Part shown: piece after piece, positions 2,521-25,318 of the stretch | How positions within the stretch are numbered: position 1 is the stretch's first letter | How the letters are laid out: the number at the start of each line of letters is the position of its first letter | DNA from: Bacteroidota bacterium | Lineage (GTDB): Bacteria > Bacteroidota > Rhodothermia > Rhodothermales > UBA10348 | Direction: 5' to 3' | Assembly: GCA_029262835.1 (NCBI GenBank) | Contig: JAJCYQ010000086.1 | Span: 1 to 43,422 of the forward strand | Length of the DNA stretch: 43,422 nucleotides | Made by a program: the position numbers and the translations under genes | The notes under the pieces: model-generated | Databases searched by the model: none | The model's input: only the letters and a program-made list of their open reading frames with translations | What the model was told of the DNA's origin: nothing

Positions 2521-3306
2521 TCAGCGCCACAGCCGTACGCCGAAAACAAGGTGAACCTCGGAGCCAGACACACCTTCGGCTCGGGCGAAGTCTTTTGCGC
2601 TGCCAAACCGATTCGTCCACGAGATGCCGACATAGGGAGCCACCTCGCGCTGAATCTCATAGCGGAGGCGAAGTCCGGCTTCGATATTGTTCAGCCCGCT
2701 ACCAACACCCCAGTCCGTGACCTCCTGGAGCGCGAGGTTAATTTCGGCCTCCGTCTGAAGCACAAGGCGCTGCGTTATGAGCAGATCATAGGACCCCTCC
2801 AGCCTGGCTGAGAGATCGCCCGCGGTGCTCAAGAATAGGGCCGGCTCAACCTCAAACCAGTACGGGGCCAGTCCTTCCAGACCCACTACCAGCTGGGGCC
2901 GGGCTCGCAGATCGCCCCCTCCGAATTCAGTGTCCAGCCGGACACCAGCCTGAGCCTCAAAGTAGGGACTGATGAGACGGCTGTAGAGCGCCTGCACTTC
3001 GGCCTCTCCCGTGCCCGTTGAGATCAGCCCTTCGCCCTCGCCCTTGAGCCAGAAACGGGTGTAGTCGTTGCCAATGCGGTAGAGTCCTTCAAGGCGGGCC
3101 GGCACGCCAGCCGCTACCGGCGCCACCTCGAAGAGGTCGAGGAGCGCGAGGCTATAGAAGTGCTGGTCGCCCATGGCCGAGGCACCCGGCTTGAAGTCCG
3201 GATATTCGGGGAAGGGCGGGTCGTCCTGCGCCTTCGCCGGAGACGCTGCGAGGAGCAGGGTTATTAAGAGAACAGAACGAAGCATATAGCTGGAAAGGAA
3301 GCTCAT
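2521..3306 (-). CDS. copB: Copper resistance protein CopB (outer membrane)
   Basis: This 261-residue protein has an N-terminal signal peptide (hydrophobic to about residue 25, ending SPAKAQ). Its body belongs to the CopB/PcoB family: QHFYSLALLDLFE near residue 50, EGEGLISTGTGEAEVQALYSR, YFEAQAGVRLD, and an alternating-strand C-terminus ending in FGVRLWR. The family forms an outer-membrane barrel that works with the multicopper oxidase CopA. Its ATG overlaps the copA stop codon in an ATGA (3303-3306), so the two are translationally coupled. It lacks the long Met/His-rich N-terminal repeat found in proteobacterial CopB; only a short MGDQH motif is present. Confidence 0.9.
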   Translation of the reverse strand: MSFLSSYMLRSVLLITLLLAASPAKAQDDPPFPEYPDFKPGASAMGDQHFYSLALLDLFEVAPVAAGVPARLEGLYRIGNDYTRFWLKGEGEGLISTGTGEAEVQALYSRLISPYFEAQAGVRLDTEFGGGDLRARPQLVVGLEGLAPYWFEVEPALFLSTAGDLSARLEGSYDLLITQRLVLQTEAEINLALQEVTDWGVGSGLNNIEAGLRLRYEIQREVAPYVGISWTNRFGSAKDFARAEGVSGSEVHLVFGVRLWR

Positions 3307-5123
3307 TGGGAAGCCAGTTCAGCGGGAATGGTGGCACCCGGCGGCTGGACCATCGCCACGCGAAACATGCCGAGTTCCATGTGATAGAGCACGTGACAGT
3401 GGAAGGCCCACGGCCCGAGGGCGTCGACCTCAATGAGCAGCGAGAGTCGCTCAGCGGGTTTGACGACGACAGTATGGACGCGCGGGATACGCTCGCGGTG
3501 GCCGTTCTCCAGTTCCATCCACATCCCATGCAGGTGCATTGGGTGGTTCATCATGGTATCGTTAACCATGGTGAGCCGAAGACGCTCGCCGAGCGTCATC
3601 GGGATGAGCGGCTCCTCGGCGTAGGTCTTGCCATTGATTGACCACATATAGCGCTCCATATTGCCCGTCAGGTGCAGTTCGATCTCGCGGTCCGGAGCAC
3701 GTCGCGGCTCCGCGTGAAACGCACGCAGGTCGGTGTAGACAAGGACGCGGCGACCGTCACCACCAAGACCAACGCCAGGTTCATGGAGGCGGCTGCGAGT
3801 GATATCAGGAGTCATTGCGTTTCCCGGGCCGTGACCATCGCCCTCGTGGGACGTAGGCTCTGGGAGGGTGCCGGGCGGGCGCAGGCCATTGTGATCCAAA
3901 CCAGGCATAGCCACATCTCCAGGCATATCGTGGCCGGAGTGATCCATACCGGGCATATCGTGGCCGGTCATGTCATCACCCTGCATGTCCATCGCGCCAT
4001 GCGCCATGCCCATATCCATCATCGTGAGCATGGGCCGTTCGCGCTCTTTGGGGACTACGGCTGACATGCCGGGACGGGGCGCGAGGGTGCCGCGAGCGTA
4101 GCCCGAGCGGTCCATTGACTCGGCGAAGACCGTGTAAGCCTGATTTCCTGGCTCGACGATGACGTCGTAGGTTTCCGCAATGCCTATGCGGAACTCGTCG
4201 ACCGTGACGGGCTCGACATGCTGCCCGCTGGCTTGGACGACCGTGAGTGGGAGGCCGGGGATGTGCACGTCGTAGAACGTACCCGCACTCGCGTTGATGA
4301 ACCGGATGTGGACGCGCTCGCCCGGTTGGAACTGGCCGAACCAGCCGGGGTCGGGCGCCTGCCCGTTCATGAGGTAGGTGTAGGTGGCCCCTGTGATGTC
4401 GGAGATGTCCGTGGGGTCCATCCGCATTCGGTCCCATGTGAGGCGCTCGCTCAGACTCATCCCCTCCCCCTTCAGGAGTCCAGCGAGCGTCTGGCGCTGA
4501 AAGTTGTAGGAATTGGGACGATTCTTGAGGTTGTCGAGAACGGCAAAAGGGTTCTCGAACGTCCAGTCCGAGAGGACGACGACGATCTCACGGTCGAAGG
4601 CATAGGGATCGCCACCGGCAGGATCAATCACGAGCGGGCCGTAGTGGCCGAGTTGCTCCTGAAACGCCGAATGGCTGTGGTACCAGTACGTTCCGTACTG
4701 GTTGATCGGATAGCGGTACTCGAATGTCGAGTGGGCCTTGATGCCGGGGAAGTTGACGCCGGGTACCCCGTCCATGTTGTTCGGGAGCAGGATGCCATGC
4801 CAGTGGACCGACGTGTCTTCGTCCAACCGGTTATGGATACGAATGATCGCATCGTCCCCCTCGGTAAAGCGAAGGAGCGGACCGGGCACGGTCCCGTTGA
4901 TTGTCACCGCGTTGCCGGTCCTGCCACCGAAGGCCAACGGCGTCCGGTCGATGGTCAAGTCATACTCCACAAGACGGCCGGTGCGACGGGTCGGTGCAAG
5001 GCCCGGGGGGCGGAAGGGACTGCCTGGCTGGGAGTGTGCCCAAGCAGGAATGGGCACGCCTATCCCCGACAGGAGACCAAGCGCTGCGGAAGAGCGGATA
5101 AATGTGCGGCGATCCATGGACAT
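3303..5123 (-). CDS. copA: Multicopper oxidase, CopA family (periplasmic copper resistance)
   Basis: A 606-residue laccase-like multicopper oxidase. The chosen start (5123, or 5117 two codons later) places the twin-arginine motif DRRTFIRSS at the N-terminus; the frame is open to 5189 but the extra residues would bury the signal. The copper ligand motifs are all visible: HWHG (about residue 107), YWYHSHS, HPMHLHG, and the final WAFHCHVLYHMELGMF, which carries the type 1 Cys and Met. A Met/His/Asp-rich insert (MGMAHGAMDMQGDDMTGHDM and on, before the last domain) is typical of CopA/CueO-like copper-binding regions. Family members oxidise Cu(I) and bind copper in the periplasm after Tat export in folded form. 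It is followed by copB with ATGA overlap. It probably shares a transcript with the upstream DUF2231 gene, 170 bp away. Confidence 0.95.
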   Translation of the reverse strand: MSMDRRTFIRSSAALGLLSGIGVPIPAWAHSQPGSPFRPPGLAPTRRTGRLVEYDLTIDRTPLAFGGRTGNAVTINGTVPGPLLRFTEGDDAIIRIHNRLDEDTSVHWHGILLPNNMDGVPGVNFPGIKAHSTFEYRYPINQYGTYWYHSHSAFQEQLGHYGPLVIDPAGGDPYAFDREIVVVLSDWTFENPFAVLDNLKNRPNSYNFQRQTLAGLLKGEGMSLSERLTWDRMRMDPTDISDITGATYTYLMNGQAPDPGWFGQFQPGERVHIRFINASAGTFYDVHIPGLPLTVVQASGQHVEPVTVDEFRIGIAETYDVIVEPGNQAYTVFAESMDRSGYARGTLAPRPGMSAVVPKERERPMLTMMDMGMAHGAMDMQGDDMTGHDMPGMDHSGHDMPGDVAMPGLDHNGLRPPGTLPEPTSHEGDGHGPGNAMTPDITRSRLHEPGVGLGGDGRRVLVYTDLRAFHAEPRRAPDREIELHLTGNMERYMWSINGKTYAEEPLIPMTLGERLRLTMVNDTMMNHPMHLHGMWMELENGHRERIPRVHTVVVKPAERLSLLIEVDALGPWAFHCHVLYHMELGMFRVAMVQPPGATIPAELASQ

Positions 5124-5293
5124 GACGATCAGTTGAATAATGCTCGGAATACGGGATGAACGAACAGGCGACCGAAACTTTCCGTCCACCTACGTGGATT
5201 TCCTTTAAGGTCGAGTAGGTAGATGTAATACTATCGTGAAGGTGTTACTGGCGCGGCCCGCCTGTCCGCTGACTGTGCACACGTGACACGACT

Positions 5294-6965: not shown

Positions 6966-7310
6966 ATGCCATACGTTGTTGCTGAACCGTGCATCAACTG
7001 CAAATACACCGATTGCGTTGAAGTCTGTCCTGTAGATTGCTTTTATGAAGGACCCAATTTTCTCGTCATCCACCCGGATGAATGCATCGATTGCAATGCC
7101 TGCGTGCCGGTCTGTCCGGTTGAGGCTATCTACGCAGAAGATGAGTTGCCCGAGATGTGGGCACATTACACGCCGTGGAACGACCATCTGGCTCGACAAT
7201 GGAAGTCATCTGACCACAACATCATTGAAAAGAGGGAAAAGGTGCCGTTGCAACCAGACTGTTCCGAGCAGGCGAAGTCAGAGGAGGACATCTTGACGTG
7301 GGGTGGGTAG
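6966..7310 (+). CDS. fdxA: 7Fe ferredoxin ([3Fe-4S][4Fe-4S])
   Basis: This 114-residue protein begins with the classic 7Fe ferredoxin sequence [17 protein letters not shown]. Cysteines at about residues 9, 12, 17 and 21 (C..C....C...CP) and at about 40, 43, 46 and 50 ([12 protein letters not shown]) bind one [3Fe-4S] and one [4Fe-4S] cluster. The conserved EDELPEMW follows. The C-terminal 45 residues are the longer tail seen in FdxA of aerobic bacteria. It is a small cytoplasmic electron carrier. It is one of few forward genes in the island, and the electron partner is unknown. The PII-like gene converges on it. Confidence 0.95.
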
Positions 7311-7388: not shown

Positions 7389-7736
7389 TCAGCCAGAAGT
7401 GCGTTCCTCTGGCGAAGTGTTGGCGGTCATCTCTTCATGATTGCGGATACGCACAACACGCTCGACAGGCATTACCGCCACCAAGCCGTCGCCCTCGGTA
7501 TGGGTCTCGGCCGTCTCTACGATCGCACTGACGATGTCATTGACCTGATCCTCGGGAACGAAGATCTCCAACCGAGCGTGCTCGGTGTAGTGGTCGGTGT
7601 TGTAGTAGTTGGCATATTCACCGGTGCCCTTGACCCGGCAAAAGCTGAAGCCACTGACGCCCAGCTTCTGGAGCATTTCCTCGACCTCCTCCAAGCGATG
7701 GAAGCGGATATAGGCGTGAATCTTATGGTAACGCAT
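7389..7736 (-). CDS. PII-family signalling protein (metal-cluster associated, PII-NG-like)
   Basis: At 115 residues it has the length and ferredoxin-like pattern of a GlnB/PII trimer subunit: MRYHKIHAYIRFHRLEEVEEML (strand 1 and helix), GFSFCRVKGTGEYANYY (start of the T-loop), HARLEIFVPEDQVNDIVSAIV, and GDGLVAVMPVERVVRIR (strand 4). The classical T-loop uridylylation Tyr context (RGSEY) is absent. A divergent PII group (called PII-NG) is known to sit beside CusA-type metal efflux genes, and this gene fits. It has its own operator (copy D, 85 bp upstream), although GAPDH lies directly upstream on the same strand. Likely role: sensing nucleotide or metal status and binding a transporter; this is an inference. 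Confidence 0.8.
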   Translation of the reverse strand: MRYHKIHAYIRFHRLEEVEEMLQKLGVSGFSFCRVKGTGEYANYYNTDHYTEHARLEIFVPEDQVNDIVSAIVETAETHTEGDGLVAVMPVERVVRIRNHEEMTANTSPEERTSG

Positions 7737-7821: not shown

Positions 7822-7861
7822 CTTAACGCAACCTGAAGGCATTCTTAATTTGCATTAAGGT
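7822..7861 (-). promoter_or_regulatory. Predicted response-regulator operator, copy D
   Basis: The half-sites at 11-bp steps on the plus strand are CTTAACG (7822), CTGAAGG (7833), CTTAATT (7844) and TTAAGGT (7855). The last seven bases overlap the stop codon of the GAPDH gene (TAA, 7855-7857). It is 85 bp upstream of the reverse-strand PII-like gene. It implies a promoter inside the gene cluster that gives the PII gene its own control. Confidence 0.7.
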
Positions 7862-8910
7862 GATGCCTTGGGCACCAGGTGCCCGGTGATTCCGAGGGCG
7901 AAATTGGTCTTTTCGATGGATGTTGCTCCCTCCTTTTCCAATTCTGTCAATGCCCGGATGGCGTCGATGGTTTCGGGGATGACGATGGCCTGATTATCGA
8001 CCATGTAGGCGTAGAACGCCTCGTCGCCCTGCACCGTGAGCATGTCCTCCCAGAGCGCTACCTCGTAGAGGTTGTCGTGCGGGCGGCCCAGGTCGGCCAT
8101 GAGTTCCTTGACCGTGTTGAGTGCCGTGAGGCCGTCCACTATGCGGATAAAAGCGATCCGGGACGAGGTGCGAAAGGCGTCCAGTACTTCGTCGTTCGAG
8201 GCCGTGCGCGTAAGCTGGACGGACCAATAGTGGAGGTGGGCGAGTGTTTCCGGTACCTTTACAGCCATCGTCACCACATCAAGGTCGGGATCGACGGTCT
8301 GGGCATCGGGACCCTGATGGCTGGGGATGTCCGGCTCGGGCACAAGCGTGTTCATGATGCCACCGAGGTGACTCTCCCACGGGTCGGTAGCGCGGCGCAG
8401 AAGCGTACCCCGCGCCCGTTTCAGCAGCCCGGCCCGCTTGAGCGCCGTGAGCGTCCGGACCGTTGAGGTGGTGTTGCAGGAGACGACGCGGGTGGCATCG
8501 CGCCCGAAGGCCGTATCGTAGTTGTTCTCAGCAGTGAACGAGTGGCCCGTGACGGAGTGCTTCTCGCCGCCCTGTACGATGAACTTGATGCCGCGCTCGC
8601 GGTAGCGCTCGACATTCTTAGCGGCCACCTTCTTGGGCGTGCAGTCCACAACGAGGTCGGCCGCGTCGAGGAGGTCTTCCAAGGTGCCTTTCGGGTTGAG
8701 ACCAACCTCCTTCATGGCGCTGACGTGCTCAGCGGTGGTACCGTAGAGCGGGAAGTCCTTCGAGCGTACCACGGCCACACGCCAGTCGGTCGCCACGTCG
8801 GCGACTCCGATGAGGGTCATATCGACCTGCGCCGCCACGGCATCGGCGACGCGCTTTCCAATCACGCCGTAGCCGTTGACGGCTACGCGGATGTTCTGGG
8901 AGTGGATCAT
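7855..8910 (-). CDS. gap: Type II (archaeal-type) glyceraldehyde-3-phosphate dehydrogenase
   Basis: A 351-residue protein of the archaeal GAPDH class: RVAVNGYGVIGKRVADAV (NAD(P)-binding Rossmann start, residues 8-25), DCTPKK near 90, the catalytic Cys145 in VVSCNTTSTVRT, and RRATDPWESHLGGIMNTLVP. It oxidises glyceraldehyde-3-phosphate with phosphate and NAD(P) to 1,3-bisphosphoglycerate. Bacteria normally use the unrelated type I enzyme for glycolysis, so a type II gene in a metal island suggests a special job. It lies 40 bp after an MFS exporter gene. Arsenate resistance can use a GAPDH plus MFS pair (GapDH/ArsJ), but this transporter does not look like ArsJ. Another idea is a metal-tolerant replacement for a copper-sensitive housekeeping GAPDH. 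Both are inferences. Confidence 0.9.
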   Translation of the reverse strand: MIHSQNIRVAVNGYGVIGKRVADAVAAQVDMTLIGVADVATDWRVAVVRSKDFPLYGTTAEHVSAMKEVGLNPKGTLEDLLDAADLVVDCTPKKVAAKNVERYRERGIKFIVQGGEKHSVTGHSFTAENNYDTAFGRDATRVVSCNTTSTVRTLTALKRAGLLKRARGTLLRRATDPWESHLGGIMNTLVPEPDIPSHQGPDAQTVDPDLDVVTMAVKVPETLAHLHYWSVQLTRTASNDEVLDAFRTSSRIAFIRIVDGLTALNTVKELMADLGRPHDNLYEVALWEDMLTVQGDEAFYAYMVDNQAIVIPETIDAIRALTELEKEGATSIEKTNFALGITGHLVPKASP

Positions 8911-8950
8911 GATTATTCCTCTTGTATTGGAGTAAGCTCGGATTGGAACG

Positions 8951-10195
8951 TTATGTGTTGGTGATGGCTGGTGCCCGGACGGAGCTGGACGACAACCTGC
9001 GCCCCACGCCCCAGATTCCAGCGGACAGGAGGAGGGCTATGCCAGCCGTCACCTGAAAAGGAAGGTCGACTTGCCAGCCAAAAAGCAGCCCGCCCAGCAG
9101 TGGTCCGGCAATCTGGCCCAGGCTGCTGAAGGTGTTCTGCAGGCCCAGCCCGGCCCCGGTGTGCGACCCGCTGCGGTTGGCGACGAGTGTGAGCAGGTTT
9201 GGCGTGATGAGGGCCACGCCGAGTGCCAGCAGCCCCACCACCGCCAGCACCGCCGACAAGGAATGGACCCACAGCAGCAGCCCCACCCCTACTCCGAGCA
9301 TACCGAAACCAGTAGCAATCTGGTGCCGCGGGCGCACCCGTCCTGTCAAAAAACCCACCACGCCGCCCTGGAACACCGCCATCACCAGCCCGCAGAGCGC
9401 AAATGCGTATCCAATCTCCGTCATTCCAAAGCGCAACACCTGGTCCGCATAGAGGGCAAAGACGGCTTCGAAGAGCGTGAGCGCGGCCTGGCTGAAGAAC
9501 ACCAGCGCGAGCACGTCCTTCAGGCGCAGCCCGAGGTCGGCCCATTGCACAGATGATCGGACAGCCTCGGGCGTACGGGAGGTTCCCAGCGATTCCGGGA
9601 GCCACACCGTCACGAGCGGGAGTGTAGCCAGGGCCAGCCCTGCAGCCGCAAAAAAAGGAATGGAGAATCCATCAAATACGAGATGACCCGGCGCCGTGCC
9701 CAGATGCCAGTCGTGCCGGGCCAGGAGTCCGCTCAGGACCGGGCCAACGAAAAACCCGAGGCTGAGGGCCGTGCCCATCCACGCCATTCCACGTCCTCGG
9801 GCATTTTCCGGCAGTGTGTCGGCCACGTAGGCGGAGGCCGCCGTCAGTAGCGCCGCCGAAAAGACGCCGGCGACCAGGCGCGCACCGTAGAGTAGCGGCA
9901 GGGACGTACCCAGGCCGAAGATGGCCTGCGTTAGCGCAAAACCGCCCAGCCCGATCACGATCATTGGCTTTCGCCCGTACCGGTCAGACCACAGGCCCCA
10001 AAGTGGTGCCAGTCCCAGTTGCGTCAGCGCGTAGGCACTCGTCAGCGCTCCCACATGGAAGGCGACTGCAGACCGCGAAGCCGCCTCACCGAGCGCCAGC
10101 CGTTCGACGAAGAACGGCAGTACTGGCAGCGTGATGCCAAAGCCGATCATGGCAATGAAGAGGGTAAAGAAGAGCAATAACAGGCGTTTGTTCAT
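8951..10195 (-). CDS. MFS drug/metabolite exporter, TetA-like (DHA1)
   Basis: A 414-residue protein with 12 predicted helices. The MFS motif A is clear in the loop between helices 2 and 3 (GLWSDRYGRKPMIVIG, about residues 67-82). Antiporter motif C appears in helix 5 (LGFFVGPVLSGLL). The start ITLPVLPFFVERL resembles tetracycline and multidrug proton antiporters. The substrate is unknown. It lies between the CDF transporter gene (154 bp upstream) and GAPDH (40 bp downstream), which makes an exported glycolytic intermediate or analogue thinkable; ArsJ-type sequence features were not recognised. Confidence 0.85.
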   Translation of the reverse strand: MNKRLLLLFFTLFIAMIGFGITLPVLPFFVERLALGEAASRSAVAFHVGALTSAYALTQLGLAPLWGLWSDRYGRKPMIVIGLGGFALTQAIFGLGTSLPLLYGARLVAGVFSAALLTAASAYVADTLPENARGRGMAWMGTALSLGFFVGPVLSGLLARHDWHLGTAPGHLVFDGFSIPFFAAAGLALATLPLVTVWLPESLGTSRTPEAVRSSVQWADLGLRLKDVLALVFFSQAALTLFEAVFALYADQVLRFGMTEIGYAFALCGLVMAVFQGGVVGFLTGRVRPRHQIATGFGMLGVGVGLLLWVHSLSAVLAVVGLLALGVALITPNLLTLVANRSGSHTGAGLGLQNTFSSLGQIAGPLLGGLLFGWQVDLPFQVTAGIALLLSAGIWGVGRRLSSSSVRAPAITNT

Positions 10196-10349: not shown

Positions 10350-11279
10350 TCAATAGGCAATTTCTTGCGTCGCCTCGCGCTCCAAACACTCGGTTTCGAG
10401 TTGCACCGTGGAGAAATAGACATCAAACTGGTCCACAAGCAGCCGGTAGATTGTGTGCTGGAGCGCTTCGGTCCCCTCATGATTGTCCACCAGCACGTGC
10501 ATTGAGACCACATTCTTGCCGGTGGTAAGGGCCCGAGCATGTACGTGATGAACGTCGCGGACGCCCGGCAGGGCTTCGACAGCAGCCTCCACAGCGGCAA
10601 GATCAAGGTCCTCGGGCACCTTGTCGAGCAAGATGTGCAGTGATTGACGGATGATACCCCAGGAGGCCCACAGCAGGACCACGCCGAAAGCCATGCCCAG
10701 GATCGGGTCGATCGCCAGGAACCCCGTAAAGCGGATTACCAACGCCGCTACAATAATGAGCAGGCTCCCGACGAAAGTTTGCAAGATGTGCCAGAAGGCT
10801 CCCTTCATGTTCAGGTTGTCCTTCTGTCTCCTGTACAACAACCGGATAGCAATCACTTCCGTTATCAAACCACCCACAGCCGCCAGGAGCATCGGCCCGG
10901 TAGGAACATCCACCGGGTTCTGCAGCCGGTTGGCACCCATCCACAGGACAAGTAAGGCCATGATGAGCAGGAAGAGGCCATTGAACAGCGCGCCCACGAT
11001 CTCGGCCCGAATCAGACCGAAGGTGGCTTGCTCCGTTGCTGGGCGAGCGGCGTAGTGTCCGGCGACAAGAGCGACGAGAACGCCGCCAACGGCCGAGAAG
11101 GTGTGGAAAGCGTCCGAGGTGACTGCCACCGAGCCGGTCCACAGCCCGATACCCAGCTCAATGACGAAATAGACGCCAGTGAGCCATCCTGATATTTTCA
11201 GAGCACGGGTGTTGCCGTCCGTAACCGCCGGCATCACGTGCCCGCTGTGGCCTGAAGGCTGCTGCACTTGCTTTTTCAT
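10350..11279 (-). CDS. Cation diffusion facilitator transporter with altered metal site
   Basis: A 309-residue CDF/CzcD-like protein: six helices (about residues 28-230), then a cytoplasmic ferredoxin-like domain (about 235-305, LPGVRDVHHVHARALTTG). The family motifs align well (TFGLIRAEIVGALFNG; DNLNMKGAFWHILQ; LDKVP). The transport site is unusual. In CzcD-type proteins helix 2 has H...D and helix 5 has H...D. Here helix 2 reads DAFHTFSA (His59, Ala63) and helix 5 reads WHILQT (His164, Thr168), so both Asp ligands are replaced while both His remain. A short His-rich N-terminus is present (GHSGHV). It may move a different ion or be non-transporting. It lies in a run of reverse-strand genes, 27 bp after the DUF5676 gene. 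Confidence 0.85.
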   Translation of the reverse strand: MKKQVQQPSGHSGHVMPAVTDGNTRALKISGWLTGVYFVIELGIGLWTGSVAVTSDAFHTFSAVGGVLVALVAGHYAARPATEQATFGLIRAEIVGALFNGLFLLIMALLVLWMGANRLQNPVDVPTGPMLLAAVGGLITEVIAIRLLYRRQKDNLNMKGAFWHILQTFVGSLLIIVAALVIRFTGFLAIDPILGMAFGVVLLWASWGIIRQSLHILLDKVPEDLDLAAVEAAVEALPGVRDVHHVHARALTTGKNVVSMHVLVDNHEGTEALQHTIYRLLVDQFDVYFSTVQLETECLEREATQEIAY

Positions 11280-11306: not shown

Positions 11307-11576
11307 CTATGCCGTTTTTGGGGTGCCCCAGCGCCGGTAAAGCGCATTGTGGATTGGCGTGAATACGAGCCCGATATATGCGCCCCAGAGGAAGCTCTCG
11401 ATCAGGCCCAGCAGGAAGCTGCTGACACTGATCCACTCGAACGCTGGCAGCACGATTTCCAGGAACTCGTGCATGTGAAGGGTCTCTGGGGTGACCAAGC
11501 CAAAAATCACGCACAGCACGTAGCTGACTGTAGTGAACAGGCTCAGTGCCCATGTGATGAGTTTGGTATTCAGCAT
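11307..11576 (-). CDS. DUF5676-like small membrane protein
   Basis: An 89-residue protein with three hydrophobic stretches (LITWALSLFTTVSYVLCVIFG; EWISVSSFLLGLIESFLWGAY) and the ending LVFTPIHNALYRRWG, which resembles DUF5676 membrane proteins found beside metal exporters. I start at the ATG at 11576; the frame is open to 11660 but the extra residues are hydrophilic and unlike the family. It lies between the 39-residue His-rich protein and the CDF gene with gaps of about 30 bp, so it is likely in the same operon. Function is unknown. Confidence 0.6.
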   Translation of the reverse strand: MLNTKLITWALSLFTTVSYVLCVIFGLVTPETLHMHEFLEIVLPAFEWISVSSFLLGLIESFLWGAYIGLVFTPIHNALYRRWGTPKTA

Positions 11577-11607: not shown

Positions 11608-11727
11608 TCAAGGTCGGAAGGAATCGCGCGTACCATGTCCTTCATGCCCGCCGTGACCAAACAGGTGTACGGCGATGAAGGCCAGCAGCAGCAGGGCGAA
11701 GAACCAGTTTTCAGTGAGCCATTCCAT
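11608..11727 (-). CDS. 39-residue membrane protein with His-rich tail
   Basis: From the ATG at 11727 the product is one hydrophobic helix (MEWLTENWFFALLLLAFIAV) followed by a tail containing GHGGHEGHG, a likely metal-binding patch. The layout resembles DUF2933-type small proteins of copper and silver clusters. The start overlaps the end of the patatin gene by 17 bp. The longer frame to 11799 would add a hydrophilic basic leader and is less likely. Confidence 0.6.
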   Translation of the reverse strand: MEWLTENWFFALLLLAFIAVHLFGHGGHEGHGTRDSFRP

Positions 11728-12694
11728 TTTGCGTGTCCGTATGGGTTTCGAATGTGTGTACAACAGGAGAGGGGGTTTCGGCTTCGTTCTGCGTCTCACC
11801 GGGCGCGAACGGATCGGCCGTGACGGTACTCAGCAGTAGCCCCAACTCGTCTCGGTGCTGCCGGACCACACCCATGCCGGCCGCGACGCATTCCCGGCGA
11901 GCATCAAAATCCATTGTGTCGATGGGGCGGCGAAATAACGGACGCAGCACCAGGTCGGCCCCTGAGAAACGGGCATCGGCGTGGCGCAGGTGGCAGATCT
12001 CCATGGCGCGCATCAGAGCTTGATACCCGTTGCGAATATCCGTTGATGCCAAATCCTGACCCGGGTCAATCGCGATGATCACTGGGTTGCCGAAGTCTCG
12101 CGCCACATCTACAGGTGCCATGTCGGCGTATGCACCGTCAGCGAGCAAGCGACCGTCTTGCTGCAAGGGTGGCAACACACCGGCCAATGCCGCGCTGGCA
12201 TAGAGCGCATCTGCTGCATTCCCGGTACGCAGCACAAACCGTTGTCCAGTGTATAGATCGGTGGTCGAGACCGCCAGCGGAATTCGCCCTGCTTCCAAGA
12301 GGCGCCCTTGCGTCAGGTTTAGCAGAAGCTGCTTTCCGGCACCGAGAGCACGCACTCCCGGCCCCCACCCGAACACCATGTTTTGAATCACCCTTGCTTT
12401 TCCCATCCAGGTCCGCAACCGTGGTCTAAACCCACCCTTTTGTGTCGGGCGAATTTGGAGGGGCCCGGGGAAAGCGCTGGTGTCCATGTCCAGCACGGCT
12501 TGGTACCAGTCGCTGCGTAGTGCATAGGTCACGCCGACGACTGCTCCCATCGAGACGCCGACGACAGCACTGGGATGATAGCCTTCGGCTTCAAGGGCAC
12601 GCAGCACACCGGCGTGGGCAAAGCCCCGCGCTCCACCCCCGGCCAAAACCAGAGTAAAAGGGCGATGTGCTTGGTTGGCCAAATGTGATGACAT
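11711..12694 (-). CDS. Patatin-like phospholipase
   Basis: About 327 residues from the ATG at 12694 (the frame continues to an ATG at 12751). The patatin signature is complete: GGGARGFAHAGVL (oxyanion-hole glycine loop near the N-terminus), the nucleophile Ser in GVSMG, and the dyad Asp in DGAYADMAPVDVAR. Such enzymes hydrolyse acyl esters of membrane lipids. No signal peptide or obvious membrane helix, so it probably acts on the cytoplasmic side (RssA/YchK type). In this cluster it stands with two methyltransferases and a geranylgeranyl-reductase-like protein, which suggests lipid turnover linked to metal stress; that link is inferred. Confidence 0.85.
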   Translation of the reverse strand: MSSHLANQAHRPFTLVLAGGGARGFAHAGVLRALEAEGYHPSAVVGVSMGAVVGVTYALRSDWYQAVLDMDTSAFPGPLQIRPTQKGGFRPRLRTWMGKARVIQNMVFGWGPGVRALGAGKQLLLNLTQGRLLEAGRIPLAVSTTDLYTGQRFVLRTGNAADALYASAALAGVLPPLQQDGRLLADGAYADMAPVDVARDFGNPVIIAIDPGQDLASTDIRNGYQALMRAMEICHLRHADARFSGADLVLRPLFRRPIDTMDFDARRECVAAGMGVVRQHRDELGLLLSTVTADPFAPGETQNEAETPSPVVHTFETHTDTQNGMAH

Positions 12695-12707
12695 CGTGAT
12701 ATACGGG

Positions 12708-12809
12708 TCAGGCTGGTCTAAAGGATGGGCAATGGCTGTCCATATCCACATACATCCCGATGAAGCACAGCGTCAGAACAAGCGGGAAGAACCGCGGGCT
12801 GATGCTCAT
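12708..12809 (-). CDS. 33-residue ORF ahead of the patatin gene
   Basis: An ATG-initiated 33-codon frame fills the otherwise empty interval between the flavoprotein and patatin genes. The product has a hydrophobic segment (FFPLVLTLCFIGMYV) and two Cys, and ends 13 bp before the preferred patatin start. No homology is recognised. It may be a small membrane protein like the others in this island, or chance. Confidence 0.3.
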   Translation of the reverse strand: MSISPRFFPLVLTLCFIGMYVDMDSHCPSFRPA

Positions 12810-14729: not shown

Positions 14730-16733
14730 TCAATCCGTCTTCAGAAAACGGGCATTGATGGATACGATGACGGTGCTTGCGGACATGAATACGGCACCGA
14801 CGGCAGGACCAAGAAGGATCCCGAAGTTGAACAGCACGCCTGCTGCCAACGGAATGGCGAGAATATTGTAACCGGCAGCCCACCACAGATTCTGGATCAT
14901 CTTGCTGTAGGTCGCACGTGAGAGCGTAACAACGGTTGTTACGTCCACTGGATTGCTCCTGACGAGGATCACATCGGCTGTTTCGATGGCAACGTCAGTT
15001 CCAGCCCCAACGGCAATACCAACGTCCGCCTGAGCGAGAGCAGGAGCGTCATTGACTCCGTCGCCAGTCATCGCTACCGAAAGGCCCCTGGCCTGTACTT
15101 CTTTGACCTTTTCCGCCTTTTGCTGGGGAAGCACTTCGGCGAATACTTCATCCAGCCCGATCTCCTTGGCTACCCAAGCTGCTACTTTCTTGTTGTCGCC
15201 GGTGAGCATCATGGTCCGGATGCCCATTTCTTTGAGTCGGGCAACGGCTTCCTTCGACTCGGGTCGGATGACATCGGCCAGTGCGATTGCCCCCGACAAT
15301 GTGCCGTCAATGAGGACGAATACGACGGTCTTCCCCTGCTCTGACAGGTCTTCGAAACGAGGATCTTCAATATCAAGACCCAAGTCGCGGACGTAGCCGG
15401 GGCTGACAACCTTTATGTTCCGTCCCTCGACCACTCCCTCGGCACCCTTGCCGGGTATGGCGGCGAAATCCTTGACATCGGCCGGTTGTTCGGTAGCCGC
15501 TGCGATCGCCTGGGCAATCGGGTGCTCAGACCGAGCCTCGACCGACGCCGCCAACCGGATCAATTCAGTCTTGGATACCGTCTCGTCAAATACCAATGTA
15601 TCCGTGATGCCGAAGCGCCCCTCGGTCAGGGTGCCGGTCTTGTCGAAGATGACTGCCTGGAGATTACGCGCTGCCTCAAATGCCGTTCGATTTCGAATGA
15701 GCAGACCATTTCCCGCAGCTCGCGAGGTGCTAACGGCGACGACCAGCGGGACGGCAAGTCCGAGCGCGTGTGGACAAGCGATTACCATGACAGTCACCAT
15801 CCGCTCCATGGCGAATGCAAAGTCAGCCCCCATGACGGCTGTCCATACAAAAAGGGTGACTGCTCCGCCACCGAGGGCCACTATCGTGAGCCAGAGGGCA
15901 GCCCTGTTGGCGAGGTCCTGTGTGTTCGACTTCGATTCCTGTGCCTGCCGAACAAGGTCAATGACTTGCGAAAGGAAACTGTCGCTGCCTGTCTTTTGCA
16001 CCTCAACAGTGATTGAGCCTTCACCGTTGATGGATCCACCAATGACTTCATCGCCGGTTTTCTTGGACACCGGGACCGACTCACCCGTCAGCATCGATTC
16101 GTTTACTGAAGTCTGTCCCTCGACGACGACGCCGTCCGCCGGAAGCTTCTCACCAGGCTTCACGACAATGCGGTCGCCGTGTTGAAGGTCCTCAACCGCC
16201 ACGTCCACAACACGTCCATCGGCTTCTACGCGGTGCGCCTCGCTTGGCATCATGCGGGCAAGTTCTTCGAGCGCCCTGGAGGCTCCCATGACACTGCGCA
16301 TCTCGATCCAGTGGCCGACCAGCATTACATCGATGAGAGTAGCAAGCTCCCAGAAAAAGATGGCTCCCTCGAGACCCACAACGACCGCGCTGGAGTACAC
16401 GTAGGCAGTCGTGATAGCGACGGAAATCAGCGTCATCATGCCGGGCCGTCCACTGCGGATTTCCTTATAGAATCCCTTCAGGAAAGGCCAGCCGCCAAAG
16501 AAAAATATTGCCGACGAAAGACCCCACAGAACATAGGAACTCCCAGGAAAGGCCAATTCCGCCCCCAACCCCAGGAACTGCTGGATCATGGGCGAGAGCA
16601 CCAGGATCGGTACCGTCAGGACCAGCGAGATCCAGAACCGCTTCTTGAAATCCTCGACCATCATGGCGTGGTGGTCGTGGTGCCCCTCGTGCTTGCCTTG
16701 GGACGAGTGTCGTTCAGAGTGGTCGTGCTGCAT
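14730..16733 (-). CDS. Copper/silver-translocating P-type ATPase, CopB type (CPH motif)
   Basis: A 667-residue P1B ATPase. The N-terminus lacks a CxxC metal domain and instead is His-rich (residues 2-24, ending HHDHHAMM). The ion channel motif is ACPHAL (Cys320-Pro-His), typical of the CopB/IB-3 subgroup, which exports copper or silver from the cytoplasm. Other motifs: TGES (216-219), phosphorylated Asp364 in DKTGTLTEG, SEHPIA, MLTGDNKK and GDGVNDAPAL. It is in a row with the lipoprotein, SHOCT and Spy-like genes upstream and a methyltransferase downstream, and is probably transcribed from operator copy E. Confidence 0.95.
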   Translation of the reverse strand: MQHDHSERHSSQGKHEGHHDHHAMMVEDFKKRFWISLVLTVPILVLSPMIQQFLGLGAELAFPGSSYVLWGLSSAIFFFGGWPFLKGFYKEIRSGRPGMMTLISVAITTAYVYSSAVVVGLEGAIFFWELATLIDVMLVGHWIEMRSVMGASRALEELARMMPSEAHRVEADGRVVDVAVEDLQHGDRIVVKPGEKLPADGVVVEGQTSVNESMLTGESVPVSKKTGDEVIGGSINGEGSITVEVQKTGSDSFLSQVIDLVRQAQESKSNTQDLANRAALWLTIVALGGGAVTLFVWTAVMGADFAFAMERMVTVMVIACPHALGLAVPLVVAVSTSRAAGNGLLIRNRTAFEAARNLQAVIFDKTGTLTEGRFGITDTLVFDETVSKTELIRLAASVEARSEHPIAQAIAAATEQPADVKDFAAIPGKGAEGVVEGRNIKVVSPGYVRDLGLDIEDPRFEDLSEQGKTVVFVLIDGTLSGAIALADVIRPESKEAVARLKEMGIRTMMLTGDNKKVAAWVAKEIGLDEVFAEVLPQQKAEKVKEVQARGLSVAMTGDGVNDAPALAQADVGIAVGAGTDVAIETADVILVRSNPVDVTTVVTLSRATYSKMIQNLWWAAGYNILAIPLAAGVLFNFGILLGPAVGAVFMSASTVIVSINARFLKTD

Positions 16734-18246: not shown

Positions 18247-18315
18247 AAGAAACATTGCGCTGTACTGGTGTAAGTGAATGAGAAAGTGCTTCTGAAAACC
18301 CATCGCTCCAGATCC

Positions 18316-19008
18316 ATGTGGCTACTACTTGTTGAAGATGAAACGCGCCTGGCCACCTCTCTCAAGATGGGTCTTGAAGAAGAGGGCTACGTTGTCGATA
18401 TCGCGAGTGACGGGATGGAGGGTGAAGCCATGGCGATGGGTAGTGCGTACGATGCCCTGATCGTGGATTGGAGACTACCGCAGCAGGATGGAAAAACCGT
18501 CGTCGAACACGTGCGCGCCGCAGGACAAAACGTCCCCATCCTCATGCTGACTGCATTGGACGATGTCGAGCACCGTGTGGCTGGTCTGGACGCGGGTGCT
18601 GACGACTATCTTCCCAAACCGTTCAAGTTTGAGGAGTTGTTGGCCCGCCTTCGCGCCCTGCTCCGAAGACCACCCCTGAACACACAGCAAGACGTCATTC
18701 AAGTAGGTGGCCTGGAACTGCACACGAAGCAAAGACTGGCAACACTTCAAGGCGATAAGCTTGAGTTGAGGACAAAGGAATACGCCTTGCTTGAGGACTT
18801 CGCACGGCATCCGAATGAAATCATATCGCGAACGGTCATGGCCGAGCGCGTGTGGGGGGATGCGTTCTACGTGACCGACAATGTGATAGACGTCACGATT
18901 TCAGGACTTCGCCACAAGCTGGCAGAAGCAATGGAGTCCCATCCCGACGGTGAGCCTCTTCGAATCGAAACGGTACGGGGAGTCGGGTATCGCCTGGTAA
19001 CCGAATAA
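18316..19008 (+). CDS. OmpR-family response regulator (CusR/CopR-like)
   Basis: About 230 residues from the ATG at 18316, which gives the family start MWLLLVEDET; a GTG at 18274 in the same frame would add 14 unlikely residues. Receiver domain: acidic pair in VEDE, phospho-acceptor Asp51 (ALIVDWRLP), Thr79, Lys101 (DYLPKPFKF). DNA-binding winged helix from about residue 130 (ELRTKEYALLEDFARHP, VWGDAFYVTDNVIDVTISGLRHKL, RIETVRGVGYRL). It forms an operon with the sensor kinase 30 bp downstream. Tandem binding to sites 11 bp apart is the known mode of this family and matches the six operator copies. Confidence 0.92.
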   Translation: MWLLLVEDETRLATSLKMGLEEEGYVVDIASDGMEGEAMAMGSAYDALIVDWRLPQQDGKTVVEHVRAAGQNVPILMLTALDDVEHRVAGLDAGADDYLPKPFKFEELLARLRALLRRPPLNTQQDVIQVGGLELHTKQRLATLQGDKLELRTKEYALLEDFARHPNEIISRTVMAERVWGDAFYVTDNVIDVTISGLRHKLAEAMESHPDGEPLRIETVRGVGYRLVTE

Positions 19009-19038
19009 CTACTGGGTCCATTGCCCGGAATACGTCCA

Positions 19039-20457
19039 ATGAAGCACTTCTTCCGCACGTTCTTTTTGCGCATCTCTACTCGACTGACAATGTGGTTCGG
19101 TCTGACGCTGCTTGTCCTGTTGAGCCTTTTTGCACTGTTCTCCTATCTGGCCTTTCATTCGAGTCTCCACCGGGACTTCGACCGACATTTGAGTCACGAG
19201 ACCCGTGAACTCGTGCCGTATATCAGGTTTATCGACAACGGGTCCGTGGCCTTTGCCGCGCTGGACGAACTCAGGTCCGTTGCTTATGGGACGGACGGGA
19301 TCTACGGTACGTATGTGCGCCTGATTTCACCTCAAGGGACCATACTGTACAGTAGCCCGAACTTTGAAAACCATATTCCACTTGCGGTCAGAATCCCCAG
19401 GACGAATTCGAACCATTCGATCAGCCGGGAGTGGGAAGGAAAACCCGCCCGATCCAGCTATACGCCCATGACTGCCGATTCAGGGGACATCAGAGGCTGG
19501 CTTGAAGTCAGTGGATTCGAGTGGTCCCTGCACCAAGAACTCTACCGGTTGCGTGTAGCGCTGCTCCTGGGAATCACTTTGAGTATGATTTTGGCAATGG
19601 GTGGCGGGTATTGGCTGGCCCGACGTGCGTTGCGTCCAGTGGCAGCCTTGACCGAGGCAGCGGACGAAATCCGCGCCACGAAGCTCACGGCCCGGCTACC
19701 TACCAGTTTCGGCGTACGTGATGAACTGACCGACCTGGCAGAGAGCTTCAATAAAATGCTATCCAGAATTGAAGCTTCCTTCGACCGCGAACGGAGATTT
19801 ACCGACAATGCAGCTCACGAATTGCTGACTCCACTCACGACAATGCGCAACGGGATTGAGGTTGCACTCCGACGCGAGCGCACTCGAGAAGCATATCAAC
19901 AAGCGCTTGAATCCATGATGCTGGATGTGGAAGAGTTGACAGAGACCGTCCAAGGCCTCTTGCAACTCGCACGTGTCGACCGTCTAAAAGAGCTCCCTCG
20001 AAGACGTGTCGACTTGAGCCGAATAGTGCACCAGCACACGAATCGATTCCAAGACCGGGCCGTTGGAAAAGGGATCAAATTGCAACAAAAAATTCTCCCA
20101 CATGTCCACGTCTTGGCCGATGAAGGTCGCATCGGGGAGGTCATAGACAATCTCGTGGACAATGCCATCAAGTACTCCCCGGACGGAGCCACTGTGACTG
20201 TGGAAGTAAGTCGACAAGACGACAACGGTCGTCTTATCGTGTCTGACACGGGGATGGGCTTCGATCCTGAAGCCAAGGAACGCCTTTTCGACCGATTCTA
20301 CAGGGCAGACGCCAAAGAGGTACAGGCACAACACGGTAGTGGTCTCGGCTTGGCGATCGTCCAGGCCATTACCTTCGTCTACGGCGGCAAGATTTCTGCC
20401 GAAAGTGATGGTATAAATTGTGGAAGTCGTTTCGTGGTTAGTCTTCCGACCGCATGA
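19039..20457 (+). CDS. Sensor histidine kinase (CusS-like)
   Basis: About 472 residues from the ATG at 19039 (a TTG at 19021 is less likely). Two helices (about 15-40 and 170-195) enclose a periplasmic sensor region of about 130 residues with few His or Met, so the metal site is not obvious. Then come HAMP (RRALRPVAALTEAADEI), the H-box with phospho-His in DNAAHELLTPLTTMRN (about residue 260), N-box (VIDNLVDNAIKYSPDG), G1 (DTGMGF), F-box (LFDRFYRAD) and G2 (GSGLGLAIV). It phosphorylates the regulator encoded just upstream. It ends 15 bp from the convergent cusA stop. Confidence 0.9.
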   Translation: MKHFFRTFFLRISTRLTMWFGLTLLVLLSLFALFSYLAFHSSLHRDFDRHLSHETRELVPYIRFIDNGSVAFAALDELRSVAYGTDGIYGTYVRLISPQGTILYSSPNFENHIPLAVRIPRTNSNHSISREWEGKPARSSYTPMTADSGDIRGWLEVSGFEWSLHQELYRLRVALLLGITLSMILAMGGGYWLARRALRPVAALTEAADEIRATKLTARLPTSFGVRDELTDLAESFNKMLSRIEASFDRERRFTDNAAHELLTPLTTMRNGIEVALRRERTREAYQQALESMMLDVEELTETVQGLLQLARVDRLKELPRRRVDLSRIVHQHTNRFQDRAVGKGIKLQQKILPHVHVLADEGRIGEVIDNLVDNAIKYSPDGATVTVEVSRQDDNGRLIVSDTGMGFDPEAKERLFDRFYRADAKEVQAQHGSGLGLAIVQAITFVYGGKISAESDGINCGSRFVVSLPTA

Positions 20458-20472
20458 GAAACCATCACAGCG

Positions 20473-23400
20473 CTATTCTTCGCCCGTCCCAGTCTCGCTG
20501 CCGACAAAGGAATTACGTAATTGAAAGCCCTTCACAATCGTATACATGGCCGGAATGACCACAAGCGTGAGGATGGTCGCGCTCACGAGCCCTCCAACCA
20601 TGGGAGCTGCGATACGCTTCATGACCTCACTACCGGTGGCTGTTCCAAACATGACAGGTAGCAAGCCCAGGATTGTCGTAAACACGGTCATCAACAACGG
20701 TCGGACGCGCATGACCGATCCTTCCTCCAGGGCGCGGTTGAGCTGACTTTTTGACGTAAGCCGACCTTCGCTTCGATAGCGCGCAATAGCTTCATTCAAA
20801 TACACTTGAATGACCACGCCAGTCTCAGCGGCCAGTCCGGCAACCGCGATAAAGCCGACACCTACAGCGATTGACATGTTATATCCCAACAGCACGATGA
20901 GCCAAATGGCGCCCACGATCGCAAACGGGAGGGTAGCCATGAGAATCATCGTTTCAGTAACATTTCTGAAATGAAGGAAAAGCAGCAGGAAAATGATGGC
21001 CAGTGTAATCGGCACCAATAGTTGCAATCGCTTGTTGGCGCGTTCCATGTATTCGTACTGCCCGCTCCATTTGATGGAATAACCTGCTGGTAGTGAAATC
21101 CGCTCCGACACGACTTCGCGGGCACGCTGTACATATGTACCCACATCCACCCCTTGCTTGAGGTCCACAAACACCCAGGCGTTTGGTCGTGCGTTTTCAC
21201 TTTTGATCATGGGTGGGCCGTCTACCAGGTTCAACTCTGCCAATTGACCGAGAGGAACCTGTATTCCTGTGGAAACGGGCACAAGCACCTGACGTAGTGA
21301 CGGGATGTCCGAACGCAGGTCCCGGGGGTACCTCACGTTGACGTTGTACCGTTCCAGTCCCTCTACCGTCCTCGTAACGTTCATCCCGCCAATCGCGCTT
21401 ACGATAACGTCCTGAACGTCACCCGTTGTCAAGCCGTAGCGGGCGGCCTCGACGCGATCGATATCGATATCGAGGAAGCTGCCTCCCATGACACGCTCGG
21501 CGTAGACGGATAGCGTACCCTCCGTTCCTTTCAATACGCCTTCAATCTGTTCGCCAATCTGTTGGAGGACCTGGAGGTCTTCGCCGGCTATCTTTATTCC
21601 TACGGGTGTCTTGATTCCGGTCGCAAGCATGTCCGTCCGCGTTTTAATCGGCATTGTCCATGCATTCGTCAGTCCCGGGATCTGTATCGCAGCATCAAGA
21701 TCTGCAACAAGTTTTTCCCGCGTCATCCCTTCACGCCATTCATCTTCCGGCTTCAGAACAATGGTGGTCTCGATCATGGTCAGGGGGGCTGGGTCTGTTG
21801 CCGTTTCCGCCCGTCCGATCTTGCCAAACACCGACGCGACTTCAGGAAAGCTCTTGATGATGCGATCCGTCTGTTGCAAGATTTCCTTTGCCTTTTGAGG
21901 CGAAACACCTGGTAGGGTTGTCGGCATGTAGAGCATGTCCCCCTCGTTCAATGCCGGCATGAATTCCGAACCTATCTGAGGAAACGGAATCAGGGGATGA
22001 CCCAGCAACATGCGCTGTACGGGAAGGAGTGTCATGAAAAGCACCAGAATCCCTGCTGAAACAACGACCCACGGGTGGCGAAGCGTCCCACGTATAACCG
22101 GTCGATACATGCGAATGAAAAATCGCGCTACAGGGTTTTCAGCCTCAGACCGAATTCGCCCCCGGACAAAGATCATCATCAGCGCGGGTACAAGTGTAAC
22201 GGCCAGGATAGAGGCCGAGCCCATTGCGAACGTCTTTGTGAGCGCAAGGGGGCTGAACAATCGTCCTTCGACCTGTTCAAGTGTAAAGACAGGCAGAAAG
22301 CTGACGGTCACAATCAGCAGCGAGAAAAAGAGGCTTGGACCGACTTCTTTGGCCGCGTCGAGTACGGCTTGTGTTCGTTCCGCCGGCTCCAAGTCACGTT
22401 GAAGGTGATTCGTCATGCGTTCGATATGCTTGTGGGCGTTCTCGACCATGACAAGTGATGCGTCCACCATCACACCAATGGCGATTGCTATACCACCAAG
22501 CGACATGATATTGGCGTTTAGTCCGATGGCATTCATGATCAAAAGCGAAGCCAGAATCCCAACCGGTACGGTGATAATGGCCACGAATGCACTCCGGGCA
22601 TGCATCAGGAAGATCATCACGATAAACGCAACCACGAGCAGCTCTTCCCAAATCTTCGTCGTCAACGTATCGACAGCACGCTTGATGAGTGCGGACCGGT
22701 CATATTCGACCACGATTTCCACGCCCTCCGGAAGTCCCACTTCCAGCTCAGCCAAGCGCTTCTTTACCCGTTCTATGACCTTCATGGCATTGTCTCCATA
22801 CCGCAGGATGACAATACCACCAACGACCTCACCCTCACCGTTCTTCTCGGCGATTCCGCGCCTGATCTCAGGGCCCATCTGAACCGTGGCTACGTCATTG
22901 ATGGTTACGGATGTCCCTCCAACGGTTTTGATCGGGATGGCTCTAATGTCATCCATACCCTTCAAGTAGCCTTTCCCGCGGACAATGAACTCGCGCTCCC
23001 CCATCTCAAGCAATCTACCGCCCACATCCTGGTTGCTCCTCTTGAGCTGCATCTTGAGGTGTGACAGGGAAATCCCGTACGCCGAGAGCTTTTGTGGGTC
23101 AACCACCACCTGGTACTGCTTCTGGAAGCCACCGATGGTAGCAATTTCGCTAACCCCTTCAATGGCCTGAAGCTCGTACTTGAGGAAAAAATCTTGAATG
23201 GAGCGTAATTGAGACAGGTCGTAGGTACCGGTCGTGTCCCGAAGGCTGTATTGATACACCCAGCCAACTCCAGTAGCATCCGGGCCGATGGCCGGTTTTG
23301 CCTGCTCGGGCAAGTCCCCCGTGACCTGGTTCAGATACTCCAGAACCCGACTCCGAGCCCAATACATATCTGTTCCATCCTCGAAAATGACGTAGACGAA

Positions 23401-23673
23401 ACTCGTGCCGAACATCGAGTATCCTCGAACGGTCTTTGCGTACGGGACACTCAGCATTGCCGTGGCCAACGGATAGGTAATCTGCTCCTCGACAATCTGC
23501 GGCCCCTGCCCGGCGTATTCCGTCTTTACGATTACCTGTACGTCCGAGAGGTCCGGAATGGCATCGACGGGCATGTTCATCAGCGTCCAACCGCCAACGA
23601 CAGACATCAGGACCGTCACGAGGATCACCAACAGGCGATTGTGTGCGCTCCACTCAATTATTGATCTCAACAT
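20473..23673 (-). CDS. cusA: Heavy-metal RND efflux pump, CusA type
   Basis: A 1066-residue inner-membrane HME-RND transporter, full length (12 helices, two large periplasmic loops). The start WSAHNRLLVILVTVLMSVVGGW and DAIPDLSDVQVIV are typical. The three methionines that bind Cu(I)/Ag(I) in E. coli CusA have clear counterparts: LYMPTTLPG, PLTMIETTI and TDMLATGIKTPVGIKI. The proton-path Asp lies in helix 4 (IAIGVMVDASLVMVENAHKHIE). It drives metal from the periplasm out through CusB and the outer-membrane channel. It follows cusB by 14 bp and ends facing the sensor kinase gene. Confidence 0.97.
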   Translation of the reverse strand: MLRSIIEWSAHNRLLVILVTVLMSVVGGWTLMNMPVDAIPDLSDVQVIVKTEYAGQGPQIVEEQITYPLATAMLSVPYAKTVRGYSMFGTSFVYVIFEDGTDMYWARSRVLEYLNQVTGDLPEQAKPAIGPDATGVGWVYQYSLRDTTGTYDLSQLRSIQDFFLKYELQAIEGVSEIATIGGFQKQYQVVVDPQKLSAYGISLSHLKMQLKRSNQDVGGRLLEMGEREFIVRGKGYLKGMDDIRAIPIKTVGGTSVTINDVATVQMGPEIRRGIAEKNGEGEVVGGIVILRYGDNAMKVIERVKKRLAELEVGLPEGVEIVVEYDRSALIKRAVDTLTTKIWEELLVVAFIVMIFLMHARSAFVAIITVPVGILASLLIMNAIGLNANIMSLGGIAIAIGVMVDASLVMVENAHKHIERMTNHLQRDLEPAERTQAVLDAAKEVGPSLFFSLLIVTVSFLPVFTLEQVEGRLFSPLALTKTFAMGSASILAVTLVPALMMIFVRGRIRSEAENPVARFFIRMYRPVIRGTLRHPWVVVSAGILVLFMTLLPVQRMLLGHPLIPFPQIGSEFMPALNEGDMLYMPTTLPGVSPQKAKEILQQTDRIIKSFPEVASVFGKIGRAETATDPAPLTMIETTIVLKPEDEWREGMTREKLVADLDAAIQIPGLTNAWTMPIKTRTDMLATGIKTPVGIKIAGEDLQVLQQIGEQIEGVLKGTEGTLSVYAERVMGGSFLDIDIDRVEAARYGLTTGDVQDVIVSAIGGMNVTRTVEGLERYNVNVRYPRDLRSDIPSLRQVLVPVSTGIQVPLGQLAELNLVDGPPMIKSENARPNAWVFVDLKQGVDVGTYVQRAREVVSERISLPAGYSIKWSGQYEYMERANKRLQLLVPITLAIIFLLLFLHFRNVTETMILMATLPFAIVGAIWLIVLLGYNMSIAVGVGFIAVAGLAAETGVVIQVYLNEAIARYRSEGRLTSKSQLNRALEEGSVMRVRPLLMTVFTTILGLLPVMFGTATGSEVMKRIAAPMVGGLVSATILTLVVIPAMYTIVKGFQLRNSFVGSETGTGEE

Positions 23674-23687
23674 CGTAATTGCCGTTG

Positions 23688-25262: not shown

Positions 25263-25318
25263 ATCGACGTAATCATTGTGGGGGCCACGGGTAGAAGAGA
25301 GCTGAGGAAATTCACCTA

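Follow-up and report, generated by a model that had tools for sequence, protein, structure and literature searches.

Archaeal-type glyceraldehyde-3-phosphate dehydrogenase in bacterial copper islands, a candidate mobile backup for glycolysis under metal stress

Type II glyceraldehyde-3-phosphate dehydrogenase (GAPDH) is known from the solved archaeal enzymes of Methanothermus fervidus (1cf2), Pyrococcus horikoshii (2czc), M. jannaschii (2yyy) and Sulfolobus solfataricus (1b7g), and we describe a gene for an enzyme of this type in a copper island of a Rhodothermales bacterium (Bacteroidota), on contig JAJCYQ010000086.1, whose 43,422 nucleotides are called the window below. The island enzymes resemble the archaeal ones in family, fold and catalytic Cys and His, with 35-40% identity in a full-length alignment, but they carry D38 instead of Lys and Q199 instead of the second His of the archaeal PSHH motif, and they are mobile, metal-linked and second enzymes in their hosts. 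Type II GAPDH is also found on plasmids of Bradyrhizobium and Streptomyces (L118, L181), where the proteins have 32-35% identity to the window protein and Val at position 38, and where no metal genes are annotated nearby, the context being biosynthesis-like and related to nucleotide metabolism. Another precedent is the arsenate resistance pair of ArsJ and a type I GAPDH. As in that pair, the window gene adjoins a major facilitator superfamily (MFS) gene in a metal island; unlike it, the GAPDH is type II, the MFS protein is not ArsJ and the pairing is not conserved. In Pseudomonas aeruginosa ICE13534, a cluster of 18 genes that is induced by copper, lies beside a cueR homolog and includes copA and an efflux gene named norA, ends with a GAPDH gene, which a 2026 study reported as differentially expressed with copper, with no function assigned by the authors (PMC13393423, study PRJEB106170). 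Finally, the suggestion of the first-pass annotation that copper inhibits type I GAPDH in some bacteria is documented for Staphylococcus aureus, where copper binds and inhibits the type I enzyme GapA and a Cu(I) chelator reverses the effect (PMC6350627). This supplies a physiological rationale for having a spare GAPDH when copper is present, although S. aureus, unlike the island hosts, alters its metabolism and makes slightly more GapA and has no acquired GAPDH of the other type (PMC6350627). Our literature search found no paper joining "type II glyceraldehyde-3-phosphate dehydrogenase" with copper, and none combining isoprenylcysteine methyltransferase, GAPDH, copper and plasmid.

We hypothesise, with a probability of roughly 0.5, that the mobile type II GAPDH of bacterial metal islands, mainly copper islands, acts as an NAD+-linked, phosphorylating backup for glycolysis under metal stress. 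The window gene (positions 7855..8910, minus strand) encodes a protein of 351 amino acids that matches the type II (archaeal-type) phosphorylating GAPDH models NF003251 (448.8 bits, cut-off 185) and TIGR01546 (324.8 bits, cut-off 232.9). The open reading frame (ORF) is complete and full-length and its active site is intact, with Cys145, in the motif SCNTT, aligned to the catalytic Cys in each of the four archaeal structures. Both catalytic residues, C145 and H225, are invariant in these four structures and in the 104 type II loci that we compared (the window, 80 genome contigs, plasmids and relatives, the genome loci being the best 80 matches of a pattern search and leaning to Rhodobacterales). 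An AF2 model, of low confidence at residues 174-197 and 269-280, has 1cf2, 2yyy, 2czc and 1b7g as its top matches (Z 40-41). By profile, active site and modelled fold the gene is thus assigned to type II GAPDH, with predicted enzymatic activity, and the initial identification of a type II enzyme with an intact Cys145 was borne out. On the other hand, type I GAPDH had been called unrelated, and this did not hold, since the model also matches type I structures, with Z about 25 and 277-289 residues aligned, a distant relationship within a common fold. With dN/dS values of 0.09-0.17 against relatives, the window gene is under strong purifying selection. Its GC3 equals that of the type I gene of the host (0.80 in both), so that composition is uninformative on a foreign origin.

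In Rossmann folds, an acidic residue at the end of beta2 classically picks NAD+ over NADP+, and use of NADP+ is common among archaeal type II enzymes, the archaeal Lys at this place being tied to cofactor choice. Position 38, which is the last residue of beta2 (its C-terminal end) in the model of the window protein, is Asp in 104/104 type II loci, Lys in 4/4 archaeal structures and Val in the two distant bacterial enzymes. From this residue, the island enzyme is predicted to be NAD+-linked and catabolic. Position 199 also marks the clade, being Gln in all 104 loci and His in all six outsiders (four archaeal, two distant bacterial).

The host genome (97.6% complete) carries one type I GAPDH (C46:16480-17448), well over the cut-off, which is the sole match of the type I profile TIGR01534, the window gene being unmatched. 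A search for such a gene had been proposed at the outset, and its result excludes that the host lacks another GAPDH. A type I gene is likewise present in 8/8 type II carriers of the order (host included) and in 49/50 carriers from other groups, which rules out a housekeeping role of the type II gene. Furthermore, type II GAPDH is over the cut-off in only 8/100 relatives (a count that appears to include the host), and both it and the adjoining MFS gene are absent from two of three congeners (G001, G002), in which the closest ATPase is 41-54% identical. Type II GAPDH is therefore an accessory second enzyme, and the copper island is itself accessory in distribution.

The neighbourhood comparison asked for by the first-pass annotation revealed that the link with metal ATPases recurs across phyla. 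Within 8 kb on each side of the gene, a P1B metal ATPase was found in 67/104 type II loci vs 0/40 type I loci of the same carrier genomes. By our estimate from the ATPase counts of these genomes (4 to 26 per genome), one would be expected in about 5% of 17-kb stretches taken at random. On the same footing (type II of 104 vs type I of 40), the enriched neighbours were ECF sigma factors (32 vs 0), DMT transporters (29 vs 0), ICMT-like proteins (27 vs 0), CFA synthase (26 vs 1), phosphoketolase (25 vs 0), arginine deiminase and carbamate kinase (each 21 vs 0), UbiB and nucleoside-monophosphate (NMP) phosphorylase (each 15 vs 0), beta-CASP RNase (14 vs 0), glycogen phosphorylase and CueR (each 11 vs 0) and PRPP synthetase (9 vs 0). 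The contrast persisted after thinning to one representative per 80% identity cluster among loci of at least 10 kb, with a P1B ATPase in 17/33 type II vs 0/35 type I loci (p 2.6e-7), any copper marker in 22/33 vs 0/35, and fermentation or glycolysis genes in 22/33 vs 1/35. Individual plasmids illustrate how these genes combine: oxidase, ICMT, GAPDH, ATPase, PRPP synthetase and a gene annotated as xylulose 5-phosphate 3-epimerase, which served as the phosphoketolase seed, in Paracoccus pAK2; copper ATPase, GAPDH, aldolase and phosphoketolase in Corynebacterium marinum; aldolase, GH57, GlgP, PFK and GAPDH in Meiothermus; and CusA, a CsoR-like gene, ICMT, GAPDH, CueR and a metal ATPase in Agrobacterium. 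In L131, from a relative in the host's order, a CusB-like gene is separated by a few genes from the series Lgt, phosphoketolase, UbiB, GAPDH, FdxA.

Type II GAPDH moves horizontally between bacterial phyla in metal islands. A search yielded 261 relatives. The gene is found on 37 plasmids, 17 of them predicted to be conjugative, and its carriers include Alpha-, Beta- and Gammaproteobacteria, Actinomycetota, Deinococcota and Bacteroidota, with at least six phyla overall. In a tree that is unsafe in its rooting and in the long branches of the archaea and Streptomyces, an island clade of 68 rows is parted from the archaeal structures with support of 100/99, and the window gene clusters with genes of Rhodothermota and Gemmatimonadota. 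A record in a phage collection (MT839732.1, 449-1471) also holds a 73% identical type II GAPDH, on a 4-kb faecal contig without annotation labelled "Bacteriophage sp."; this is probably bacterial DNA deposited as phage and was kept out of the analysis.

Two further features of these neighbourhoods are worth recording. Among the metal ATPases beside type II GAPDH, CPD is the commonest TM6 motif (CPD 35, CPC 23, CPH 13), for example in L114, L180 and L039, and it occurs in both Proteobacteria and Actinomycetota; the one paper found on this form, dealing with three rhizobial proteins, presents it as a new subtype of Rhizobiales copper ATPase (PMC5552934). Moreover, a trio of PRPP synthetase, an archaeal-type thymidine/AMP phosphorylase and an aCPSF1-like beta-CASP RNase recurs in islands, and might serve to salvage RNA or nucleotides as a source of energy or PRPP. 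Its sites are:

L119, 817-4648: trio
L123, 15413-22096: trio
L125, 2376-6168: trio

Under the backup hypothesis, copper or a similar soft metal would inhibit the housekeeping type I GAPDH and damage respiration, and the type II enzyme would then oxidise glyceraldehyde 3-phosphate, step 6 of glycolysis, in an NAD+-linked reaction, allowing phosphoglycerate kinase to continue producing ATP that could feed the P1B efflux pumps. In many islands the gene has enzymes of substrate-level energy metabolism as co-travellers, namely phosphoketolase, acetate kinase, arginine deiminase with OTC and carbamate kinase, glycogen phosphorylase and phosphofructokinase. PRPP synthetase also travels with type II GAPDH, and copper inhibits this enzyme (Prs) in S. 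aureus (PMC10249872). As islands hold second versions of GAPDH and of PRPP synthetase together with respiration-free routes to ATP, a mobile backup is the simplest account. The comparison has strengthened this explanation, which began as conjecture about a single locus and is now backed by an association that recurs across phyla. We infer NAD+ preference, metal tolerance, metal induction and a rescue role for the enzyme. The earlier proposal, in which a second enzyme would sustain glycolysis in the presence of copper, stands as regards the second enzyme, the type I gene being separate, and is otherwise supported indirectly, by the linkage with metal ATPases and central metabolism. The copper-responsive GAPDH of ICE13534 offers partial independent support. 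More tentatively, metal islands could carry, in addition to pumps and oxidases, a wider transferable set of central-metabolism enzymes that stand in for housekeeping enzymes sensitive to metals, with the NAD+-adapted archaeal-type GAPDH as its commonest part. In this possible but doubtful extension, type II GAPDH would replace type I, and the other members would be a spare PRPP synthetase with NMP phosphorylase and beta-CASP RNase, phosphoketolase with acetate kinase, the arginine-deiminase pathway and a class I aldolase.

Several observations weigh against the backup hypothesis. The window carries GAPDH alone of the set of energy enzymes named above, with no other energy enzyme beside it, and in 6/94 long type II loci copper and fermentation genes are both missing from the surroundings. 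The type I control loci are chromosomal housekeeping regions, so that their contrast with type II loci may in part be typical of any accessory DNA. Nor is copper resistance deducible from fold or sequence, as the type II enzyme likewise has a Cys and a His in its active site (C145, H225). The ICE13534 gene shares with the window a mobile copper cluster, but host and element differ and its GAPDH class (I or II) is unstated; in the sister element ICE24TCP, which has two additional ORFs ahead of the GAPDH gene, this gene is not differentially expressed (PMC13393423). A search for CueR-type dyads gave three matches in 1.57 Mb, none near type II GAPDH genes. The strongest rival is a general role in low oxygen or energy stress, in which the islands would be fermentative survival kits (arginine-deiminase pathway, phosphoketolase, acetate kinase, lactate-type dehydrogenase), the enzyme would support fermentation whenever respiration stops, from any cause, and the metal genes would be co-selected neighbours. 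Fermentation or glycolysis genes do occur with no copper marker in 16/94 long loci, and several plasmids carry Crp/Fnr-type regulators and CBS and universal-stress proteins. Against this stand the reverse class of 20/94 long loci with copper genes and no fermentation gene, the window itself with its lone energy enzyme, the persistence of the copper linkage after thinning, and some copies that adjoin CueR, copper ATPase or copper-protein genes, and we regard the rival as somewhat unlikely. That the gene simply rides along with metal plasmids and islands as a neutral passenger, irrelevant to metal stress, would agree with its variable immediate neighbour and with the general richness of plasmids in metal genes; the strong purifying selection, the active site invariant over 104 loci and the persistence beside metal pumps in at least six phyla make it improbable. 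We give similarly little credence to a supply of NADPH for thiol defence, feeding glutathione or thioredoxin reduction under metal stress: copper stresses thiol pools, and the NADP+ use of the archaeal enzymes would suit such a role, but the classical NAD+ signature replaces the archaeal Lys at the end of beta2 in every one of the 104 loci.

The remaining rival concerns the MFS gene, and would have GAPDH make an organo-metal(loid) product that the MFS protein exports, in the manner of ArsJ. As first reported, the MFS gene lies 40 bp ahead of GAPDH (stop to ATG), and the two are probably cotranscribed; a promoter and terminator scan around this operon gave no signal above chance. The exporter had been called TetA-like, and Tet(A/B/C) is indeed its best curated model, but with a score (147.8 bits) far below the cut-off of 475. 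A congener (L034) repeats the pair, sharing the order ATPase, FAD oxidoreductase, DUF5676, CDF, MFS, GAPDH, with a wider MFS-GAPDH gap. These two are the only ones of the 104 type II loci with MFS as the nearest recognised neighbour; elsewhere this is most often CFA synthase (23), UbiB (9) or an ICMT-like gene (7), and in several loci it is the P1B ATPase. A conserved MFS partner is thus ruled out, the pairing being confined to one genus and the nearest gene differing between loci. Only six relatives of the MFS protein were found on plasmids at E 1e-40; a Methylophaga plasmid record with one of them also has a type II GAPDH, several genes apart, and one cyanobacterial relative lies near a gene for a four-helix copper-binding protein. 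The ArsJ model NF033734 has no match in the host genome, even at E 10, and the scanned part of the window ORFs contains no ars genes. In 16/50 carriers (all within genomes G102-G142) we found 17 ArsJ genes, and the GAPDH partner, 42-72 bp away, is type I in 17/17 and type II in none, which cleanly confirms the ArsJ/type I pairing; no type I GAPDH lies inside any of the 104 type II loci. Since the ArsJ/type I module sits elsewhere in these cells, the type II gene is something else. The ArsJ-like arsenate pair, offered as a precedent in the first-pass annotation, is rejected, and a detoxification pair of GAPDH and exporter seems very unlikely. On the backup hypothesis, the MFS gene is an independent passenger of the metal island.

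Accounts of metal resistance usually centre on export, oxidation and sequestration. If islands do carry the wider set of substitute enzymes, target replacement with substrate-level ATP supply would be a third, transferable layer. If the backup hypothesis is true, the type II GAPDH beside metal pumps across phyla would add the replacement of a poisoned enzyme, comparable to trimethoprim-resistant DHFR. Annotation would also be corrected, as such genes are now labelled glycolysis and ignored in metal islands. Because copper inhibition of bacterial GAPDH is documented, the idea is directly testable.

The surroundings of the window gene confirm the copper island first proposed, with TIGR01480, TIGR01511 and TIGR00914 over their cut-offs and a CopB match to Pfam. 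Besides GAPDH, the annotated features are:

106-984: amino-acid permease ORF, aligned to its Pfam model over the C-terminal half only
2521..3306, minus strand: CopB outer membrane protein (Pfam PF05275, 241.6 bits)
3303..5189, minus strand: CopA-type multicopper oxidase (TIGR01480, 746.5 bits, cut-off 479)
6966..7310, plus strand: FdxA-type ferredoxin (FdxA model, 129.4 bits, below the cut-off of 135)
7389..7736, minus strand: PII-like signalling protein, directly downstream of GAPDH (Pfam PF00543)
8951..10195, minus strand: DHA1/Tet-like MFS exporter of 414 amino acids, upstream of GAPDH (Pfam MFS_1; Tet models below cut-off)
10350..11279, minus strand: CDF cation efflux protein, ZitB-like (TIGR01297 over cut-off; same order in L034)
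11307..11576, minus strand: DUF5676 small membrane protein (Pfam PF18926; present in 8/104 loci)
11711..12751, minus strand: patatin-like phospholipase (Pfam PF01734)
14730..16733, minus strand: copper P1B ATPase with a CPH motif (TIGR01511, 623.7 bits, cut-off 397)
18274..20457, plus strand: CopR/CusR-like and CopS/CusS-like heavy-metal two-component system (TIGR01387 and TIGR01386 score best, each under its cut-off)
20473..26641, minus strand: whole CusA/CzcA-type RND efflux system
20473-23673, minus strand: CusA/CzcA (TIGR00914, 1222 bits, cut-off 701)
23688-25262, minus strand: CusB-like adaptor (below cut-off)
25319-26641, minus strand: CusC-like ORF (no model match)

Transposases of the Mutator family and of IS66 are found on the right side. 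The permease ORF is cut or begins beyond the contig end, and has relatives near the type II loci L035, L070, L075 and L085. FdxA lies 3' of type II GAPDH, on the same strand, in five loci from relatives in the host's order (L033, L036, L131, L132, L133); in the window it is near GAPDH on the opposite strand, with no obvious functional link. A group of PII-like proteins encoded near metal efflux genes is known but poorly explained, and among the 104 type II loci the window is the only one with a PII-like gene.

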